Positions 1-6,900 of a stretch of DNA of 64,000 nucleotides are shown here, piece after piece (the stretch's first letter is position 1; every line of letters starts with the position of its first letter). Location of the stretch: positions 992,001 to 1,056,000 of the forward strand of contig NZ_OGVD01000004.1 of NCBI RefSeq assembly GCF_900258045.1, given 5' to 3'. This stretch comes from Sphingorhabdus sp. EL138. GTDB taxonomy: Bacteria; Pseudomonadota; Alphaproteobacteria; Sphingomonadales; Sphingomonadaceae. The position numbers and the translations under genes are program-made. The notes beneath the pieces are model-generated. The model was not told the DNA's origin. It saw only the letters and a program-made list of their open reading frames with translations, and did no database searches.

Positions 1-8
1 GCCTAAAG

Positions 9-407
9 CTAGGCAGCGCGGTCCCGGGCTTCGGCAAAGCTCATCAGTTCATTTGCCACGTCACGGTCGCAGTCACTTACCAGTTCCTTGACGGCGGATA
101 GCAGACTGGCATCACCATCCACATATCTCGAAGCCATTTCCCATTTGGGAAACTGGCGCCGCCCGATATAGCCATTTTTTAGCTGGATTATCGCGGAATG
201 ACGTCTGTCAGCGGATATCCGAGCAAAAGTCTCTTCGACCTGCTCTGCTTCACCTTCCAGATATTGGAGAAATCGCCGTTTATCCTGGATTAAAAGACCG
301 GTTATGCCGTTCCTGACATTATTCCGGCGCCCGACACGAAGAATATCTGTCATTTCTGACCGGGTGATATCCGGTTTTGGTGTGCTGATATAGACAAGTC
401 TGTACAT
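9..407 (-). CDS. BLUF-domain blue-light photoreceptor, stand-alone
   Basis: Single-domain sensor of 132 residues. BLUF domains bind FAD and rearrange hydrogen bonds on blue light; single-domain members usually signal through a partner protein. Visible signature residues are Tyr6 in the LVYIS start, Asn30 before GITGLL, Gln48 in FLQYLEG and Trp89/Met91 in the FPKWEM segment, so the photochemical Tyr/Gln pair is intact. The last ~40 residues form the helical cap. No output domain is fused. It lies downstream of the YHS/Cys-rich unit on the same strand but is separated by a terminator, so it is probably transcribed separately. The output partner is not identifiable here. Confidence 0.93.
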   Translation of the reverse strand: MYRLVYISTPKPDITRSEMTDILRVGRRNNVRNGITGLLIQDKRRFLQYLEGEAEQVEETFARISADRRHSAIIQLKNGYIGRRQFPKWEMASRYVDGDASLLSAVKELVSDCDRDVANELMSFAEARDRAA

Positions 408-478
408 TCTGCACCTTGCAAACGCGTCGAGAGATGCAAGGTTATCTGATTCCGGTTAATTTTTGCCTATACGTCAAA

Positions 479-515
479 CAAAAAGGGCGGCAGAATCACG
501 TTCCACCGCCCCTTC
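479..515 (-). terminator. Rho-independent terminator after the YHS/Cys-rich unit
   Basis: Read on the minus strand, AAGGGGCGG pairs with CCGCCCTT across a ~15-base loop and is followed by a T-rich tract. It sits about 20 bp beyond the stop of the first YHS gene and before the BLUF gene, so it marks the 3' end of that transcription unit. Confidence 0.7.
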
Positions 516-533
516 TCGTTATTTGGACCGCAC

Positions 534-1082
534 TTAAGCGTCGTCGTAACGTGCATCCGCTGGAATTTTCGGGAATTCCTGGTCCGCTTTTTCGATAAAG
601 CCGGGAATATCCTTGTTCCAGGTATCCTGAACTTTCTGATTGAAGTTCAGATATAGCTTACCGTCGACAACAGCATAGAGTTTCGGATCACCCGATGCGA
701 GCTTGCCGCGTGAGGCCGCCCAAGCGCAGTGGCCACCATATTGGGGAGCAAACTTTGCAGGTTCGGCTTGGAATTTCGCCGCATTTTCGGCTGAAGCAAA
801 GTGATATTCAACGCCATTATATCTGACGCGATGTTCCTTGCTTCCTTCAACAGGCACGCCGTCGCCTTCAAAATAGCTGACCGTGTCATAACCGCTTACA
901 GCCACATTTTCAGATCCGGCAGGACCGGTGAAAACAGGTAATTCCATATCATCGGAAACTTCTATAATTGCGGCATCGACCGTTTCAGCTGTTTCCGTTG
1001 TTTCTGCTGTTTCAGACGAAGGGGCGGAGCAAGCGATTGGCAACGTGGCCATCATGATCGCTGCTAAAAATGTCTTGTTCAT
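534..1082 (-). CDS. Exported YHS-domain protein (paralogue 1), possible lipoprotein
   Basis: Protein of 182 residues with a hydrophobic signal peptide (about 1-17) and Cys18 in an imperfect lipobox (LPIAC), then a Thr/Glu/Ala-rich linker to ~45. The YHS domain spans about 50-122: NVAVSGYD, VEYHFAS, AKFAPQYGGHCAWA. Cys119 in GGHCAW is the conserved thiol; homologues are known as YHS-domain (seleno)proteins because some carry selenocysteine there. The C-terminal ~55 residues (KLYLNFN, DIPGFIEKAD) also match the paralogue at 1525-2010. It is the last gene of a three-gene unit and has an AAAGGA ribosome site. Metal or thiol chemistry in the periplasm is inferred from the domain; substrate unknown. 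Confidence 0.9.
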   Translation of the reverse strand: MNKTFLAAIMMATLPIACSAPSSETAETTETAETVDAAIIEVSDDMELPVFTGPAGSENVAVSGYDTVSYFEGDGVPVEGSKEHRVRYNGVEYHFASAENAAKFQAEPAKFAPQYGGHCAWAASRGKLASGDPKLYAVVDGKLYLNFNQKVQDTWNKDIPGFIEKADQEFPKIPADARYDDA

Positions 1083-1106
1083 TTGTTAAATCCTTTGGGT
1101 AATCTG

Positions 1107-1150
1107 TTTGAGGGGGCACTGGTGTCTTAACATAAGCTAACCCCCTCAAA
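1107..1150 (-). promoter_or_regulatory. Perfect 10-bp inverted repeat between Cys-rich gene and YHS gene
   Basis: TTTGAGGGGG at 1107-1116 and CCCCCTCAAA at 1141-1150 are exact inverse complements around a 24-base loop that holds a small CTTA/TAAG stem. No T-run follows on either strand, so it is not a classical terminator. Its place between two co-directional genes suggests an mRNA-stabilising, processing or attenuating hairpin. Function is inferred. Confidence 0.55.
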
Positions 1151-1160
1151 CCACTATTCT

Positions 1161-1463
1161 TTATTGAGGTGCACAGGCCGCTGCGCAGGCACCGCAAGCG
1201 GCGGGTTGAGCAGCGCAGACTGCGGCATCAGCGGCACATCCTGCGGCGCAGGCAGCAGCAGCGCAGTCCGCAGCAGCACAAGCACCGCATGCAGCGGCTG
1301 CACAAGCTCCACCAGATGCAGCACATGCTGCTGCACACGCACCGCAGGCTGGTTGAGCTACTGGAGCAGCTGCCGTGCAGGTAGCAAGCGCTGCAGAAGG
1401 TGTGGCCAGGGACAAGCCGCCCATGACAGCGAGCATGGCGGAAACTTTGCGTTGGTTGTTCAT
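1161..1463 (-). CDS. Exported Cys/Ala-rich low-complexity peptide, unknown family
   Basis: Protein of 100 residues. Residues 1-28 are a clear Sec signal peptide ending PSAALA, leaving a ~72-residue mature chain made almost only of Ala, Cys, Gly, Pro, Gln and Asp. All 14 cysteines (29, 40, 43, 47, 54, 59, 62, 67, 72, 76, 83, 90, 93, 97) lie in the mature part, spaced 3-7 apart in ACGAC and AAAC units; the block QPACGACAAAC recurs near the C-terminus. AAAGGA sits seven bases before the ATG. The cysteine density suggests metal binding or a disulfide-rich structure, broadly like exported copper-buffering peptides, but I recognise no family. It lies between two YHS genes on the same strand, which supports a shared role. 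Confidence 0.8.
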   Translation of the reverse strand: MNNQRKVSAMLAVMGGLSLATPSAALATCTAAAPVAQPACGACAAACAASGGACAAAACGACAAADCAAAACAAGCAADAAVCAAQPAACGACAAACAPQ

Positions 1464-1524
1464 GGTATTTTCCTTTGATGTAAGTGTTTACGTTAAATGG
1501 TTGCGTGACGAATGGGGGCCCCGA

Positions 1525-2010
1525 TTAGCCGCCGAATTTGGCGTCATCCGGGAATGTTGGCCATTTGATATCAGCTTTGCTGATGAAGCCGGCGATATCT
1601 CCAAGCCAGGTTGTCTGAACCTGCTTGTTGAAGTTCAGGTATAGTTTGCCATCAGTAACTTTGTAGATGAGTGGATCACCGGGAGCCAGTGAACCGCGAG
1701 ACAAAGCCCATGCGCAGTGCCCGCCATATTGCGGAGCAAATTTTGCGGGATTTTCTTTAAATTTTGCAGCATTCGATGCGTTGCTGAAGTGATAGTCTAC
1801 ACCCTTATACTTAACCCGATGGGCCTTGCTGCCTTTAACGGGTTTACCGCTGCCGGTGAAATAGGATGTAACGTCATATCCACTCACAGCGATGTTTCCG
1901 CCTTCCACACCGGTAAAGGTCGGACCGGCAATTGCCGCATCTATCGGCAATGCAAAAGTGGCGGTGGTCGCGGCGAGCGCGAGTGCGATTGGCATAATCA
2001 GTGTTTTCAT
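1525..2010 (-). CDS. Exported YHS-domain protein (paralogue 2)
   Basis: Protein of 161 residues with a Sec signal peptide (about 1-28, ending AAIAG) but no lipobox, so probably soluble in the periplasm. The YHS domain (about 31-102) carries NIAVSGYD, VDYHFSN and AKFAPQYGGHCAWA, with Cys99 as the conserved thiol. It is closely similar along its length to paralogue 1 apart from that protein's acidic linker, so the pair arose by duplication. AAGGAA precedes the ATG. It is the first gene of the unit YHS, Cys-rich peptide, YHS, and its promoter must lie in 2011-2170, shared divergently with the leu leader. Confidence 0.9.
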   Translation of the reverse strand: MKTLIMPIALALAATTATFALPIDAAIAGPTFTGVEGGNIAVSGYDVTSYFTGSGKPVKGSKAHRVKYKGVDYHFSNASNAAKFKENPAKFAPQYGGHCAWALSRGSLAPGDPLIYKVTDGKLYLNFNKQVQTTWLGDIAGFISKADIKWPTFPDDAKFGG

Positions 2011-2169
2011 TTTCGGTTCCTTGATAAGGTTTAAGTTCTTGTGATTGGAGGTAAAAATAATTTCGTTGAGCTGTCATGCTCGTTGATGGTTTCGCAGGGC
2101 TGAGCAAAAAGGTTTCACTTCCGGCAAAATAAATTCACCGGCATGGTTGATTTTTGCACCGCAACAGAT

Positions 2170-2229
2170 ATGAGTATCGGCATGAGATGTGCCTCAAACC
2201 TAGAGCTACACCGACTTATGCGCCCTTAG
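2170..2229 (+). CDS. leuL: leu leader peptide (19 or 15 residues)
   Basis: A short reading frame with ATG at 2170 or, in frame, at 2182 ends at TAG 2227-2229, giving MRCASNLELHRLMRP from the second start. Three leucine codons lie close together at 2200, 2206 and 2215 (CTA, CTA, CTT), codon choices rarer than CTG in this DNA. The stop codon lies inside the 5' arm of a strong hairpin. This is the arrangement of leucine attenuation leaders, in which ribosome stalling at Leu codons under leucine shortage favours read-through into leuA. I see no strong ribosome-binding site before either ATG, so the exact start is uncertain. Confidence 0.7.
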   Translation: MSIGMRCASNLELHRLMRP

Positions 2230-2280
2230 GCGTAGCTGTGCTGCTGCCCGATGCGGCAGCCCCGCCTAAGGGATTATTTT
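2204..2280 (+). promoter_or_regulatory. Attenuator of leuA: terminator hairpin plus competing stem
   Basis: CCCTTAGGCG (2223-2232) and CGCCTAAGGG (2263-2272) are a perfect 10-bp inverted repeat; a nested GCTGCC/GGCAGC stem lies inside and ATTATTTTT follows, so the whole is a rho-independent terminator about 70 bp before leuA. A competing stem can form between AGCTAC (2204-2209, inside the leader Leu codons) and GTAGCT (2232-2237), overlapping the terminator's 5' arm. Which ribosome position favours which fold is inferred, not tested. Confidence 0.72.
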
Positions 2281-2350
2281 TCCAGAAAATTGAAATTAAT
2301 TGGCAATTTCCGCCTTGCGCGAAATCGCTTGCAGCATAAGAGTATCGACC

Positions 2351-4009
2351 ATGCATCCTATTCCATCTCAAAAATACCGCCCCTTTGGCCAGATTGATTT
2401 GCCGGACCGGCAATGGCCTTCCCGCACCATTGACAAAGCACCGCGCTGGCTCTCCACCGATCTGCGAGACGGCAATCAGGCACTTATTGATCCGATGGAT
2501 GCGCAAAAGAAACAGCGTTTCTTTGATCTGCTCGTCAAAATCGGAATCAAGGAAATTGAGGTCGGCTTTCCATCCGCTGGCGCCACTGACTTTGATTTCA
2601 TCAGCGGCTTGGTCAAGTCTGGCAGTATCCCAGATGATGTCATAGTGCAGGTTCTGACCCAGTCCCGCCGCGATTTGATCGAAACCAGCTTCGCCAGCCT
2701 GGAAGGAGCCAAGCAGGCCATTGTCCATCTTTATAATGCGGTCTCACCAGCATGGCGTGATGTTGTATTCAAGTTAGGCAAAGACGGCGTGAAGGATATT
2801 GCCAAGGAAGGCGCAACCATCCTGCGTGAACAGGCCGAAAAATATCCTGATACCGACTGGCATTTCGAATATTCGCCGGAAACCTTCTCGACCGCCGAAA
2901 TTGAATTCAGCCTGGAAGTCTGTGAAACGGTCATGGAAATTATCGAGCCAACAGCAGAAAAACCGCTGATCCTTAACCTGCCAGCGACAGTTGAGGCTTC
3001 AACGCCGAATATCTACGCAGATCAGGTGGAATGGATGTGCAAGCATATCAGCAAGCGCGATCATGTAGTCATCAGTCTGCACACACATAACGACCGTGGC
3101 TCGGGCATTGCGGCATCGGAACTTGGCCTGATGGCGGGTGCTGACCGTGTCGAAGGCTGTTTGTTTGGAAATGGTGAGCGTACCGGCAATGTTGATCTGG
3201 TGACGCTGGGCCTCAATATGTACACGCAAGGCGTTGACCCCGAACTTGATTTTTCCAACATGGATGAAATCGTCAATACGGTTGAATATTGCAACCAGCT
3301 ACCGGTTCCGGAACGCCATCCCTATGCCGGTGAACTGGTCTTCACCGCTTTTTCCGGTTCCCATCAGGACGCGATCAAAAAGGGTTTTGCAGCACAGGAA
3401 CTGCGCAATGACGAGCTGTGGAACGTACCTTATCTGCCGATCGACCCGCGCGACATCGGCCGTGACTATGAAGCTGTGATCCGCGTCAACAGCCAGTCCG
3501 GCAAAGGCGGTATCGCGTGGATATTGGAGCAGGATTATGGTCTGAAACTGCCCAAGCGTCTGCAAGCCAATTTCAGCCGCACGGTGCAAGAACTTGCCGA
3601 CGAGACAAGCCGGGAACTGTCTGCCGAGGATATCTGGGGTGCATTCCAGAAACGCTATCATCTCGATGGCGGCGGCCAATACAGCCTGATCGACTATCAG
3701 GAAAGCCAGACCGGCGGCGAACGCATATTTGTCGGAAAGATCAAAGGCCCCGATGGTGAAACGTCCGTCAGTGGTCGCGGCAATGGTCTGATATCGAGTG
3801 TGGTCGATGCCCTCGCCTCTTCGCTTGGCATCACACTGGAGATCATGGACTATCAGGAACATGCGCTGGGTTCAGGCAAAGATGCGCAGGCGGCCGCCTA
3901 TGTCGAATGCAAGACCGGGGACGGCCGTGAATTCTATGGTGTCGGTATCAATAGCGACGTTGCCAGAGCCTCGGTAGAAGCGTTGCTAAGCGCGGTAAAC
4001 CGGATTTAG
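2351..4009 (+). CDS. leuA: 2-isopropylmalate synthase, long (type 2) form
   Basis: Condenses acetyl-CoA with 2-oxoisovalerate, the first committed step of leucine synthesis. The 552-residue protein is of the long class shared with actinobacteria. The catalytic TIM barrel occupies roughly 30-330, with the STDLRDGNQAL substrate/metal motif near the N-terminus, LHTHNDRGS supplying metal His ligands, and GNGERTGN. The C-terminal ~130 residues form the regulatory LeuA dimer domain. I chose ATG 2351 because the family's conserved N-terminus begins there; the frame is open back to 2300 but has no family match. It stands alone behind the leucine leader at 2170-2280, so transcription is probably attenuated by leucine supply. 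Confidence 0.95.
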   Translation: MHPIPSQKYRPFGQIDLPDRQWPSRTIDKAPRWLSTDLRDGNQALIDPMDAQKKQRFFDLLVKIGIKEIEVGFPSAGATDFDFISGLVKSGSIPDDVIVQVLTQSRRDLIETSFASLEGAKQAIVHLYNAVSPAWRDVVFKLGKDGVKDIAKEGATILREQAEKYPDTDWHFEYSPETFSTAEIEFSLEVCETVMEIIEPTAEKPLILNLPATVEASTPNIYADQVEWMCKHISKRDHVVISLHTHNDRGSGIAASELGLMAGADRVEGCLFGNGERTGNVDLVTLGLNMYTQGVDPELDFSNMDEIVNTVEYCNQLPVPERHPYAGELVFTAFSGSHQDAIKKGFAAQELRNDELWNVPYLPIDPRDIGRDYEAVIRVNSQSGKGGIAWILEQDYGLKLPKRLQANFSRTVQELADETSRELSAEDIWGAFQKRYHLDGGGQYSLIDYQESQTGGERIFVGKIKGPDGETSVSGRGNGLISSVVDALASSLGITLEIMDYQEHALGSGKDAQAAAYVECKTGDGREFYGVGINSDVARASVEALLSAVNRI

Positions 4010-4113
4010 CACCCATATTAAGCAATCGGTTAAAATAACAGTGGAATCCGCTGCCGCTTGCGGTATGGCGGGTTTCTAAGCTTTTCTGTTTAGCCTTTTT
4101 AATTGGGGACCTT

Positions 4114-5085
4114 ATGACTTTACCTGCCATATTCGACAATCTTCGCCTGCCACTTATCGGTTCACCTTTGTTTATCGTATCGGGACCGGAACTGGTCATT
4201 GCGCAGTGTAAAGCCGGAATAGTCGGGTCCTTCCCTGCCCTCAACGCACGGCCGCAAAGCCTGCTCGACGAGTGGATGCACCAGATTACCGAAGAGCTTG
4301 CCGCATGGAACCGGGACAATCCCGACAAACCGGCGGCGCCCTTTGCCGTGAACCAGATTGTCCACAAGTCCAATGATCGACTCGATCAGGACATGGCGAC
4401 CTGTGAAAAATGGAAGGTGCCGCTGATTATCACCTCTTTGGGTGCCATTGAGGACCTCAATACTGCCGTTCACAATTGGGGCGGTATCACCATGCATGAC
4501 ATTATCAACGACCGCTTTGCTCACAAGGCGATCGAAAAGGGCGCTGACGGCCTGATCCCGGTGGCGGCCGGCGCTGGCGGCCATGCGGGGGTTATCTCTC
4601 CCTTCGCGCTTATGCAGGAAATCCGTCAGTGGTTTGATGGCCCGGTGGCTTTGTCCGGTTCTATTGGTTGCGGCGCATCCATTCTGGGCGCTCAGGCTAT
4701 GGGCGCAGACCTTGGCTATATGGGCTCCGCCTTTATCGCGACCAGGGAAGCCAATGCCGACCAAGGCTATAAAGACGGCATTGTTGAAGGCCGTGCCAAG
4801 GATATCGTCTATTCTGACCTGTTTACGGGCGTCAGCGGCAATTATCTGCGTGGTTCAATCGAAAATGCCGGTCTCGATCCCGATGACCTTCCGCAAGGCG
4901 ACTATAAGACCATGAACTTCGGTTCTGGCGGCAATACCGAGAAAAAGGCGTGGAAAGATATCTGGGGCAGCGGTCAGGGCATCGGCGCCATTGATGAAGT
5001 CCGTTCGGTTCAGGATATGGTAGATCGCCTAATCACCGAATATCAGGAAGCGCGCGATAGCTTGAAAACCCGGTTTAACTACTAG
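4114..5085 (+). CDS. FMN-dependent nitronate monooxygenase / 2-nitropropane dioxygenase family protein
   Basis: TIM-barrel flavoenzyme of 323 residues. Family signs are LIGSPLFIVSGPELVIAQ at the N-terminus, GADGLIPVAAGAGGHAG at ~143-160 (the glycine-rich FMN phosphate loop with the family His) and SGSIGCGASILGAQAMGADL in the second phosphate-binding segment. Members oxidise alkyl nitronates or act as uncharacterised NAD(P)H:quinone or enoyl reductases, so the substrate cannot be named. It follows leuA by ~100 bp on the same strand and may be read from the same promoter. The C-terminal FGSGGNTEKKAWKDIWGSGQG block is typical of the proteobacterial subgroup. Confidence 0.88.
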   Translation: MTLPAIFDNLRLPLIGSPLFIVSGPELVIAQCKAGIVGSFPALNARPQSLLDEWMHQITEELAAWNRDNPDKPAAPFAVNQIVHKSNDRLDQDMATCEKWKVPLIITSLGAIEDLNTAVHNWGGITMHDIINDRFAHKAIEKGADGLIPVAAGAGGHAGVISPFALMQEIRQWFDGPVALSGSIGCGASILGAQAMGADLGYMGSAFIATREANADQGYKDGIVEGRAKDIVYSDLFTGVSGNYLRGSIENAGLDPDDLPQGDYKTMNFGSGGNTEKKAWKDIWGSGQGIGAIDEVRSVQDMVDRLITEYQEARDSLKTRFNY

Positions 5086-5136
5086 GTCGTCTGAATAGGG
5101 AAGCTTATCGAAAAATCGGCAAACCGGCTTTGCTTT

Positions 5137-6348
5137 TCAGTTGGGTTTTTGCAAAATATCAACCGGCACGCGGCCCAACGTAATATGTTTGGGGCCTCGC
5201 CCAACCTCGATGCGTGCAATCTCGTCCTGATCGGACCGCGATACAAATGAAACATCATCGCTTCTCGTATTGGCAAGCAGGCAAAGCTCTCCGCTTTCTG
5301 AGAAGACAGACCAGCTTGGTGCATCACCGACATTAATTGTCGCACTGAGCGTGAGTTTTTCGGCGTTAACAAATGCGGCATAGTCGGACGCACGCCCGGC
5401 GACGCATAATGTTTGTTCATCAGCAGACAGGGACAGCCCATGATGCGGTGCCTCAAAATCCCAATCATCGTCTGTGACTCCCGCCTTGATGGGCAAATCT
5501 ATCCGGCCTTTCTGCGTATCCCCATCCAGATCGCGTGCAACAATGGCATGCGTATTGGATAGCTGAGCATATAGCATGCGGCGACTCTCGGATATCTGGA
5601 ACGGACGAATCCCTGCATCGAAGCTATATTCCTTCAACACCTGCAACGACTGCGCATCCACTACGGTTATGCGATAGGCATCGCCATTGGCGTTACGTTC
5701 AGACAACTCTGCCTCCATATCGCCAAGGCTGGCAGCATATACCTTGCTTCCATCATCACTGACATGGACATCATGCGGCCAATCGCCTGTCTTGAATTGC
5801 CCCAGTTTATCGCCTGTGCGCGTATCAAGTATCTCGACAATATCCCCGCCGCGAATAACCGCTGACACAAACAACCGTTTGCCGTCGGGTGAAATGTCCA
5901 TATGATCTGCGCGTATTCCGGCGATCGGCGTCCGCCAGAGAATTTCGTGGGTCTTAAGGTCGAACGCGGCAACATCCGCTAGAAAGCCGCGCGAGACAAA
6001 CAATACGCGCCCATTTCGCGACAGATCGCTGTCTTGGGCATAATTCAACCCACCCTTGCCTTCCGCGATATCTTGAGCAAATGATTGGACTGGGTCACGA
6101 AAAAATCCGGTATTTTTGCCGTCGGGAGTAATGTCTATCGTGTCTATTACCTGCCTTTTCTGAACGTCGATCAGGCTAATTGTTCCGCCAACGGCATTGG
6201 CCACAAAAGCGATTTCCCGGCTTTCCCCCTGCTGTTTTGCGGACGAGTTCAGCGGCCCTGTCCCAAAACTGCTTTCCTGCCACATACGCAGCCCGGTAAA
6301 CGAGAGAGCGGCCAGTATGATGATCGCTAGATAAGGCTTTGTTCTCAT
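5137..6348 (-). CDS. YVTN-type beta-propeller protein, membrane-anchored or exported
   Basis: Protein of 403 residues with an N-terminal hydrophobic segment (about 7-22) acting as signal peptide or anchor, followed by a seven-bladed propeller of ~40-residue repeats: IAFVANAVGGTISLIDV, RVLFVSRGFLADVAAFDL, KRLFVSAVIRGGDIVEIL, SKVYAASLGD and others, each ending in a hydrophobic strand with an Asp/Thr turn. Such YncE-like proteins often bind partners, DNA or metals, or sit beside quinoprotein and cytochrome systems; no such partner is visible here. It converges on the nitronate monooxygenase gene, 51 bp apart. Biochemical role unknown. Confidence 0.8.
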   Translation of the reverse strand: MRTKPYLAIIILAALSFTGLRMWQESSFGTGPLNSSAKQQGESREIAFVANAVGGTISLIDVQKRQVIDTIDITPDGKNTGFFRDPVQSFAQDIAEGKGGLNYAQDSDLSRNGRVLFVSRGFLADVAAFDLKTHEILWRTPIAGIRADHMDISPDGKRLFVSAVIRGGDIVEILDTRTGDKLGQFKTGDWPHDVHVSDDGSKVYAASLGDMEAELSERNANGDAYRITVVDAQSLQVLKEYSFDAGIRPFQISESRRMLYAQLSNTHAIVARDLDGDTQKGRIDLPIKAGVTDDDWDFEAPHHGLSLSADEQTLCVAGRASDYAAFVNAEKLTLSATINVGDAPSWSVFSESGELCLLANTRSDDVSFVSRSDQDEIARIEVGRGPKHITLGRVPVDILQKPN

Positions 6349-6462
6349 GACCGGCCCCTGTTACATAGCTTGTTCTTGAAAAGTTGCCCTGAACATAACC
6401 CAAAAATCTGCACTTTTGTGGCTAATCGCAAATCCTGGTGCGATCTGAAAGAAATCCGGTGC

Positions 6463-6900
6463 TCATTTCCTGTCCAATCGGGCCTTGGCCTTTACAAAGG
6501 TACCGCCGCCAAAATCACTGGATGGTACAAGATTTTCACCATCTATCCTCATCAGAACCGTCCCGATGGGGTCATAACGCGCGCCTGCTTTGGGCGGATC
6601 AAATATCAGCATTACCTGTTCATCCTGAAGACTCCAGCTACCACCGGACAAAATGTCTAGCCCACCGACGATCAAATACCATTGAAAGCTGCCATCCTCT
6701 GACAATTGAAGGCCCGAAGCGGTTTCCATCACGCCGCGCAGGTGATAGCGTCCCAACAGTTTTTGTGACGCCTCGATATCTTGCTTGTCAGGGGCGGTTT
6801 GCGCTTTCCCATGTTCTACTTCTTCGGTCTTTTCGGAAGATTGCGGAACAGAGACAGCCAGCATCGACGCCATAAAGCCACTAATCACAAGATTTGCCAT
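6463..6900 (-). CDS. Unknown small exported protein downstream of mltG
   Basis: I place the start at ATG 6900, 7 bp after the mltG stop, giving 145 residues with a signal peptide (MANLVISGFMASMLAVSVP). The frame is open further upstream, but that part overlaps mltG and looks like a shadow. The mature part has a polar linker (~22-42), then a compact domain with GRYHLRGVMETASGLQLSEDG, YLIVGGLDILSGGSW and VMLIFDPPKAG, suggesting a small beta-barrel or lipocalin-like fold. I do not recognise the family. Co-transcription with mltG at the end of the fab cluster suggests an envelope role. Confidence 0.72.
   Translation of the reverse strand: MANLVISGFMASMLAVSVPQSSEKTEEVEHGKAQTAPDKQDIEASQKLLGRYHLRGVMETASGLQLSEDGSFQWYLIVGGLDILSGGSWSLQDEQVMLIFDPPKAGARYDPIGTVLMRIDGENLVPSSDFGGGTFVKAKARLDRK

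Follow-up and report, generated by a model that had tools for sequence, protein, structure and literature searches.

A Conserved Operon for a Predicted Exported Cys-Rich Peptide and Two YHS Proteins in Sphingorhabdus, with DUF6969 as a Candidate Maturing Family

The window analyzed here is a stretch of 64,000 nucleotides from Sphingorhabdus sp. EL138 (contig NZ_OGVD01000004.1, positions 992,001 to 1,056,000). In this report, we describe an operon of three minus-strand genes near its start that encodes two YHS domain proteins, YHS1 and YHS2, and, between them, a peptide of 100 residues composed largely of cysteine and alanine. The system is real and conserved, and it is undescribed within the literature searched (one library of papers, without subscription journals or the preprints outside it): a predicted exported Cys-rich peptide, probably for the buffering of metals or thiols, accompanied by a candidate new family of maturing enzymes, DUF6969. 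An earlier note, made from the DNA letters alone, had proposed the three genes as an exported metal- or thiol-handling module. It missed the link to DUF6969, which may be the more important part.

We favor, with a probability of about 0.6, the reading that the three genes supply a thiol sponge of the cell envelope, together with two helper proteins, within a metal- or thiol-stress regulon, where the metal, the modification, and the export are predicted from sequence. A SigF-like sigma factor would turn the operon on under metal or thiol-oxidizing stress. The peptide would then be exported, and its clustered cysteines would bind soft metals (Cu(I), Cd, Hg, Ag) or take up oxidizing equivalents. 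The YHS proteins, with one invariant cysteine each, would serve that pool too, either by transferring metal or by keeping the array reduced. The conserved leader may mark the peptide for recognition by a cytosolic maturation factor. For this role, in trans, the best candidate is DUF6969, whose gene lies ~840 kb away.

The Operon and Its Products

The features of the operon are listed below in window coordinates. The three open reading frames (ORFs) were found where the earlier note had placed them.

YHS1, 1525-2010 (-): 161 residues, predicted exported YHS_seleno-family protein with a GGHCAW motif (Cys99); assigned from the ORF and from matches to Pfam YHS and NF041384
Cys/Ala-rich peptide, 1161-1463 (-): 100 residues, leader MNNQRKVSAMLAVMGGLSLATPSAALA; assigned from the ORF, its composition, and its relatives, with no family match
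YHS2, 534-1082 (-): 182 residues, YHS_seleno-family protein with a lipoprotein-like N-terminus and a GGHCAW motif; assigned from the ORF and from matches to Pfam YHS and NF041384
SigF-type promoter-like site, GAAACC-N16-CGAAA, 2090-2116 (-): 106 nucleotides ahead of the YHS1 start
Hairpin in the gap that separates the peptide gene from YHS2, 1106-1151 (-): 11-bp stem, without a T run
Intrinsic terminator of the operon, 476-512 (-): from the minimum free energy fold of 466-530, with a T run seen in the sequence

The mature peptide that follows the apparent AxA site contains 73 residues, of which 14 are Cys and 39 are Ala; the remainder are 6 Gly, 4 Pro, 3 Gln, 2 Asp, 2 Thr, 2 Val, and 1 Ser. 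The array is thus nearly free of charged, aromatic, and bulky residues. The composition given earlier was correct, as was the spacing of 3-7 between cysteines, except at the first gap, which is 11. The N-terminal Sec-type leader is clear by eye, and export is predicted from it. The peptide matches none of the Pfam or NCBIfam families at E up to 1, models for DUF2282, BufA2, and metallothioneins included. The earlier statement that it fits no described family thus agrees with these databases and with the literature search, in which nothing was found on the YHS domain together with "cysteine-rich peptide" and the papers on NPCAA repeats were unrelated by their listing.

YHS1 and YHS2 each match Pfam YHS, and their scores against NF041384, "YHS domain-containing (seleno)protein", were 148.1 and 140.5 bits, respectively, relative to a curated cut-off of 70. 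The GGHCAW cysteine that the note had seen in both flanking proteins is present, at the Cys/Sec position of the NF041384 family, and Cys99 is invariant in 35 aligned homologues. The AlphaFold2 model of YHS1 is good, with a predicted local distance difference test score (pLDDT) of 82.7. No Foldseek match to this model was obtained at E <= 0.001, and the best VIA-align Z score was 6.9 (9d2f_A). Residues 43-93 and residues 96-157 both gave weak alignments (Z ~3) with a single region of toluene monooxygenase, and it is possible from the model that YHS1 is a tandem YHS duplication.

The gaps between the genes for YHS1, the peptide, and YHS2 are 61 and 78 bases, and an AAAGGA/AAGGA-like site, read from the sequence, lies upstream of each ORF, as first reported. 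The terminator also described there folds with a minimum free energy of -26.7 kcal/mol over 466-530 (z -3.9); it was missed by a simple consensus scan for terminators. The three genes form one predicted minus-strand unit with a strong terminator, the transcript linkage being read from this layout. The hairpin at 1106-1151 (-25 kcal/mol, z -3.2) has counterparts of differing sequence, recognized by eye, between the peptide and YHS2 genes of several relatives. It is possibly an element for mRNA processing or stability, and it could give unequal expression, with the peptide in excess of YHS2. No Rfam family was matched at the gathering score within positions 1-6500 of the window.

Conservation and the Partner Families

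A search with YHS1 returned 54 loci, the nearest 23 of which (L003-L025) are all labeled Sphingomonadales except L013, a metagenome-assembled genome labeled Sulfitobacter that has the same gene order. Conservation of the peptide and its YHS neighborhood had been set beforehand as a point on which the proposed module could fail, and both proved to be conserved. A Cys-repeat ORF was found at 22 of these 23 loci (it is missing at L018) and at one (L038) of the 31 more distant loci, L026-L056. The exact YHS-peptide-YHS order is present in 13 of the 23 (L003-L014 and L016), and the order YHS-peptide-DUF6969 in L015, L023, and L024. At three Sphingorhabdus loci (L017, L019, and L021), the family leader and a Cys array form the start of the second YHS protein. 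YHS_seleno was found in 13 of 194 cyanobacterial genomes; two of these (G545 and G725) encode proteins in which the YHS domain follows a signal-peptide-like start and an NPCAGK or DPCAAA array, and in a third (G712) a short array begins before it. The array-YHS fusion therefore occurs in two phyla. Chance or artefact as the origin of the peptide-YHS arrangement is ruled out by this conservation. YHS is not the universal partner, as many peptide loci have DUF6969 as the neighbor instead.

The peptides themselves retain their leader and the number of their cysteines. Among loci L003-L013 (n = 11), nine peptides keep exactly 14 Cys despite a rearranged array; L010 has 15 and L011 has 11. The array units vary by genus (ACGAC, GACGAC, ASACAA, NPCAANPCAA), and a leader with ML-x-V-x-GGL is retained. 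Across six loci, the first 20 residues of the leaders have a mean identity of 0.52, and those of the corresponding YHS1 signal peptides one of 0.33; with 24 residues compared, the values are 0.49 and 0.37. The very low complexity of the array, and the variation of its length and repeat units across genera, might suggest a disulfide-cross-linked protein of a structural or coat type, with no specific metal or redox role. We consider this highly improbable, since the number of cysteines is kept while their order changes, the partners YHS_seleno and DUF6969 recur, and a stress-type promoter-like site is conserved.

A second peptide of the family is encoded in the same genome at G000:C1:153250-153534, ~840 kb from the operon. 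It was retrieved with the window peptide as the query (L002, E 6.9e-5, 59% identity), and the two have a common leader. Directly downstream lies the only DUF6969 gene of the genome (PF22308, E 1.7e-57). This pair (C1:147000-160000, L122/L002) adjoins genes for a GTA-holin-like protein and a GH108 lysozyme. A phage origin is unsupported by PHROGs, in which no match was found for DUF6969, the second peptide, or YHS1, though the second peptide adjoins those GTA-holin-like and lysozyme-like genes.

DUF6969 is found in 17 of the 147 genomes sampled from the order, nine of them in the same family as Sphingorhabdus sp. EL138. All ten DUF6969 genes of these nine genomes have a leader-bearing Cys peptide just upstream, which in G074 contains only 5 Cys. 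The family is present in 21 of the 22 genomes that bear loci L003-L025, versus the 17 of 147 in the sample (G071 and G536, in which the coordinates of DUF6969 are identical, are probably one genome). Each of the 23 DUF6969 genes in these 21 genomes is accompanied by a leader-bearing Cys peptide within the 1.5 kb flank; three of them (L015, L023, L024) are already among the YHS1 loci. The sole operon genome without DUF6969 is G532 (L013), the one labeled Sulfitobacter, whose contig has a Sphingomonadales gene order and whose label is probably the result of mis-binning. Among the YHS_seleno genomes of the family, a YHS-linked peptide was detected in 5 of 6 with DUF6969 and in 0 of 10 without it (p 0.0014), by a peptide profile that can miss peptides: at E <= 0.01, this profile (A1) missed two real ones (G118, G130) and gave three probable false matches (G138, G144, G057).

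DUF6969 was found in 20 of 398 genomes of Pseudomonadota. A Cys-repeat ORF lies within 3 kb of 30 of 47 distinct DUF6969 proteins, versus 0 of 40 control stretches from DUF6969-bearing genomes, by a rule that was devised after examples had been seen and that misses both the 5-Cys peptide of G074 and a 4-Cys NPCGP peptide of L198. By this rule, 17 proteins lack such a neighbor, and several of these are additional copies from genomes in which a different copy is linked. Removal of L015, L023, and L024, which were picked via YHS, leaves 27 of 44. Removal as well of L199, a doubtful positive that is antisense and without a leader, leaves 26 of 44, versus 0 of 40 for the controls (p 3e-10).

The neighboring arrays are of several types. 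NPCAAK peptides adjoin DUF6969 at L156, L185, L186, L188, L191, L243, and L277, and KCGAK peptides at L152 and L195. NPCAA-type arrays beside DUF6969 are fused to a SoxA/TsdA-type cytochrome c (L187, L189) or to cytochrome P460 (L148, L151, L158); the array of L184, also beside DUF6969, was placed with the P460 fusions by its CxxCH-like end. An exported FGE-sulfatase-like gene adjoins DUF6969 in L151, L185, L186, and L188 (the Pfam match was run for L151 only). At L196-L199 an exported rhodanese-like protein is encoded directly downstream of DUF6969; L196-L198 are genomes of ~2 Mb with sulfur-transporter-like genes, and L198 also carries the NPCGP peptide mentioned above. Plasmids contributed 91 DUF6969 records. 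Of the four plasmid regions inspected, that of Skermanella (L243) has an adjoining NPCAAK peptide, and none was found beside DUF6969 in L241, L242, or L244. The viral contigs gave one partial DUF6969 locus, which was not used.

Seven histidines of DUF6969 (H38, H56, H58, H68, H70, H72, and H104 in L002 numbering) are near-invariant, being kept in 44-47 of the 47 proteins, and Arg177 and Asp178 are kept in 46 of 47. The protein has no signal peptide by eye and should therefore be cytosolic, where the leader could be recognized prior to export. For the bufferin Buf1, preliminary results given in PMC12452194 place the signal peptide within the recognition sequence. We tentatively propose, from conservation and gene neighborhood, that DUF6969 may represent a new family of metal-dependent enzymes for the maturation of Cys-repeat peptides and proteins before Sec export, with the window peptide as a substrate in trans. 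The substrates would then perhaps comprise the ACGAC, NPCAA, and KCGAK arrays, some of them fused to cytochrome c or P460, as a new class of exported, Cys-modified metal sponge resembling ribosomally synthesized and post-translationally modified peptides (RiPPs).

The AlphaFold2 model of DUF6969, calculated from three sequences, is of low confidence (pLDDT 53.0) and gave no Foldseek match at E <= 0.001, so that nothing follows from it for the fold. No sequence relative was found in the PDB at E up to 10. A relationship to MNIO or to DUF2063 was rejected, as the profile-comparison probabilities were 0.3 and 0.1 percent, respectively. No paper naming DUF6969 was found in the literature searched.

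Promoter-like Sites, MNIO, and Competing Explanations

In 12 of 12 aligned loci, those of the window and 11 relatives, the region ahead of YHS1 contains GTGAAACC and CGAAA without variation and at a constant spacing. The site GAAACC-N16-CGAAA differs by a single substitution from GTAACC-N16-CGAA, the SigF promoter consensus of Caulobacter (PMC3511200); according to the same paper, SigF directs the expression of the bufferin-type operons CC2907-2905 and CC3254-3257 in the presence of chromate and cadmium. The bufferin operon of the genome examined here (DUF2282, MNIO, DUF2063, DoxX, sigma, and NrsF by Pfam) has an exact GTAACC-N16-CGAAA at 90 nucleotides before its precursor gene, and another exact site lies 74 nucleotides ahead of a glutathione reductase gene (TIGR01424, over the cut-off). 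The nine SigF-like sites in the genome include six at 49-106 nucleotides before an ORF in the same direction, such as those ahead of the bufferin operon, the window operon, and the glutathione reductase gene; some of these sites overlap an upstream ORF. The sites at L245, L247, L250, and L251 lie ahead of the genes for glutathione reductase, a DUF2147 protein, and two exported proteins. Elsewhere, the strict site precedes the peptide gene at -188 in G130 and at -61 in G118, and L017 has one close to YHS.

The site ahead of glutathione reductase is also consistent with a different function, in which the array would be a carrier of disulfides or sulfane sulfur, for sulfur handling or oxidative folding, and not a metal sponge. 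The rhodanese genes of L196-L199 and the SoxA/TsdA-type fusions of L187 and L189 point in the same direction, as do two members of the SigF regulon in Caulobacter, DoxX and YedY, which are tied to sulfur in PMC3511200. The window operon, however, contains none of these sulfur genes, and other arrays are fused to cytochrome P460 (L148, L151, L158; L184 by its CxxCH-like end). We regard a sulfur carrier as improbable.

YHS_seleno was found in 72 of the 147 genomes of the order sample and lies within ~1.5 kb of MNIO in at least four of them (G043, G049, G120, G141), as determined by comparison of coordinates. In G043 and G049, the YHS gene is directly upstream of genes for a bufferin-like peptide, MNIO, a DUF2063-like protein, and a DoxX-like protein; in G120 and G141, it follows the MNIO genes, and in G141 these are MNIO and a DUF2063-like ORF, with no precursor seen. 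The YHS proteins near MNIO pass NF041384, and the BufA2 matches of the G043 and G049 peptides fall short of the cut-off. The metal or thiol handling proposed in the earlier note thus gains indirect support from YHS_seleno beside MNIO, from the promoter-like site common to the operon and the bufferin operon, and from the site before glutathione reductase.

Several findings weigh against the sponge reading and against the part assigned to DUF6969 within it. All of the genomes were counted without weighting for relatedness. The nine SigF-like sites compare with 16 for a reversed-pattern control; the number of sites alone therefore shows nothing, and only their position counts. A search for the strict site gave no hit ahead of the second peptide of the genome, in the DUF6969-linked loci L065-L069, L072, and L080, in L117-L120, or in 9 of the 11 loci L015-L025 (L015, L016, and L018-L024; L025 has a loose match only); among the DUF6969-linked loci, hits were obtained in L071 and L073. 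This patchy occurrence makes it a feature of the clade of this operon and not of the whole peptide family. DUF6969 is present in 0 of 194 cyanobacterial genomes, those with array-YHS fusions included, and the array therefore need not have DUF6969. Finally, MNIO is present in all 22 operon genomes, versus 80 of 147 in the order sample, and co-occurrence alone thus cannot choose between MNIO and DUF6969.

The window peptide might accordingly be modified in trans by the single MNIO of the genome, as an unlinked bufferin-type RiPP, with DUF6969 uninvolved. The shared SigF-type site favors this, as do G130, where a peptide-DUF6969 pair adjoins an MNIO/DUF2063 operon, and L195, where a KCGAK peptide and DUF6969 follow MNIO, DUF2063, and DoxX-like genes. 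However, the operon contains no MNIO gene, and the sole MNIO match (PF05114, G000:C3:28137-28937) is outside the operon, on another contig, beside its own DUF2282 precursor. In addition, G118 and G122 have the peptide and DUF6969 with no MNIO match, and the window peptide has no DUF2282 or BufA2 match. Modification by MNIO is therefore judged unlikely, if somewhat less so than a sulfur carrier, and a thiol sponge with DUF6969 as the candidate maturation factor is retained as the preferred reading.

Two neighboring features flank the operon. A BLUF blue-light sensor gene (PF04940, window 9-407, minus strand) lies just downstream and is kept in 11 loci by gene clustering. On the other side, a conserved inverted repeat, CCCTTAGGCG...CGCCTAAGGG, at ~2200-2285 is followed by a T-rich run on the plus strand, upstream of leuA (2300-4009, plus strand). 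It looks like a leuA attenuator or terminator and has no Rfam match.

Comparison with Known Systems

The bufferins are MNIO-modified Cys-rich RiPPs (Buf1/DUF2282, Buf2, Buf_EGKCG/oxazolin, and CxxxxC). The window operon resembles them in its small, predicted exported Cys-rich peptide and in a SigF-type promoter-like site. YHS_seleno genes also adjoin MNIO operons, and both systems stand side by side in L195 and G130. The operon differs in consisting of YHS-peptide-YHS only, with no gene for MNIO or DUF2063, and its peptide differs in matching neither DUF2282 (Pfam) nor BufA2 (NCBIfam). Cys/Ala units of this kind are not seen in the searched passages of the MNIO landscape paper (PMC12452194), the main text of which includes neither YHS nor DUF6969, and the partners of the window family are YHS and DUF6969. 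Among the papers listed (9 of 10), none was found to pair "YHS domain" with DUF692 or DUF2282. The window peptide would be bufferin-like in role and lacks the marks of a bufferin (MNIO, DUF2063, and a precursor signature of Pfam or NCBIfam).

Metallothioneins, like the window peptide, have many cysteines and few other reactive side chains. The window peptide differs from them in that it is predicted to be exported, is rich in alanine, and matches no metallothionein model in Pfam or NCBIfam. The proteins of the YHS_seleno_dom family (NF041384) include YHS1, YHS2, and the fused proteins, all of which exceed the curated cut-off; here they are paired around a Cys array, or fused to one in relatives, and this pairing was not found in the literature searched.

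The operon also bears comparison with the DUF6969 (PF22308) systems. The DUF6969 gene of this genome adjoins a second peptide with the leader of the window peptide, and the DUF6969-partnered peptides carry a leader and a Cys/Ala array like those of the window peptide. The window operon itself has no DUF6969 gene, so that any action of DUF6969 on its peptide would be in trans. To our knowledge, exported copper-binding RiPPs have been recognized only recently, and all of them need MNIO enzymes. If the reading given here is correct, a Cys-array family with a partner other than MNIO, in several families of Pseudomonadota and in cyanobacterial YHS fusions, would widen the biology of exported RiPPs, and two unexplained families, YHS_seleno and DUF6969, would gain a function.

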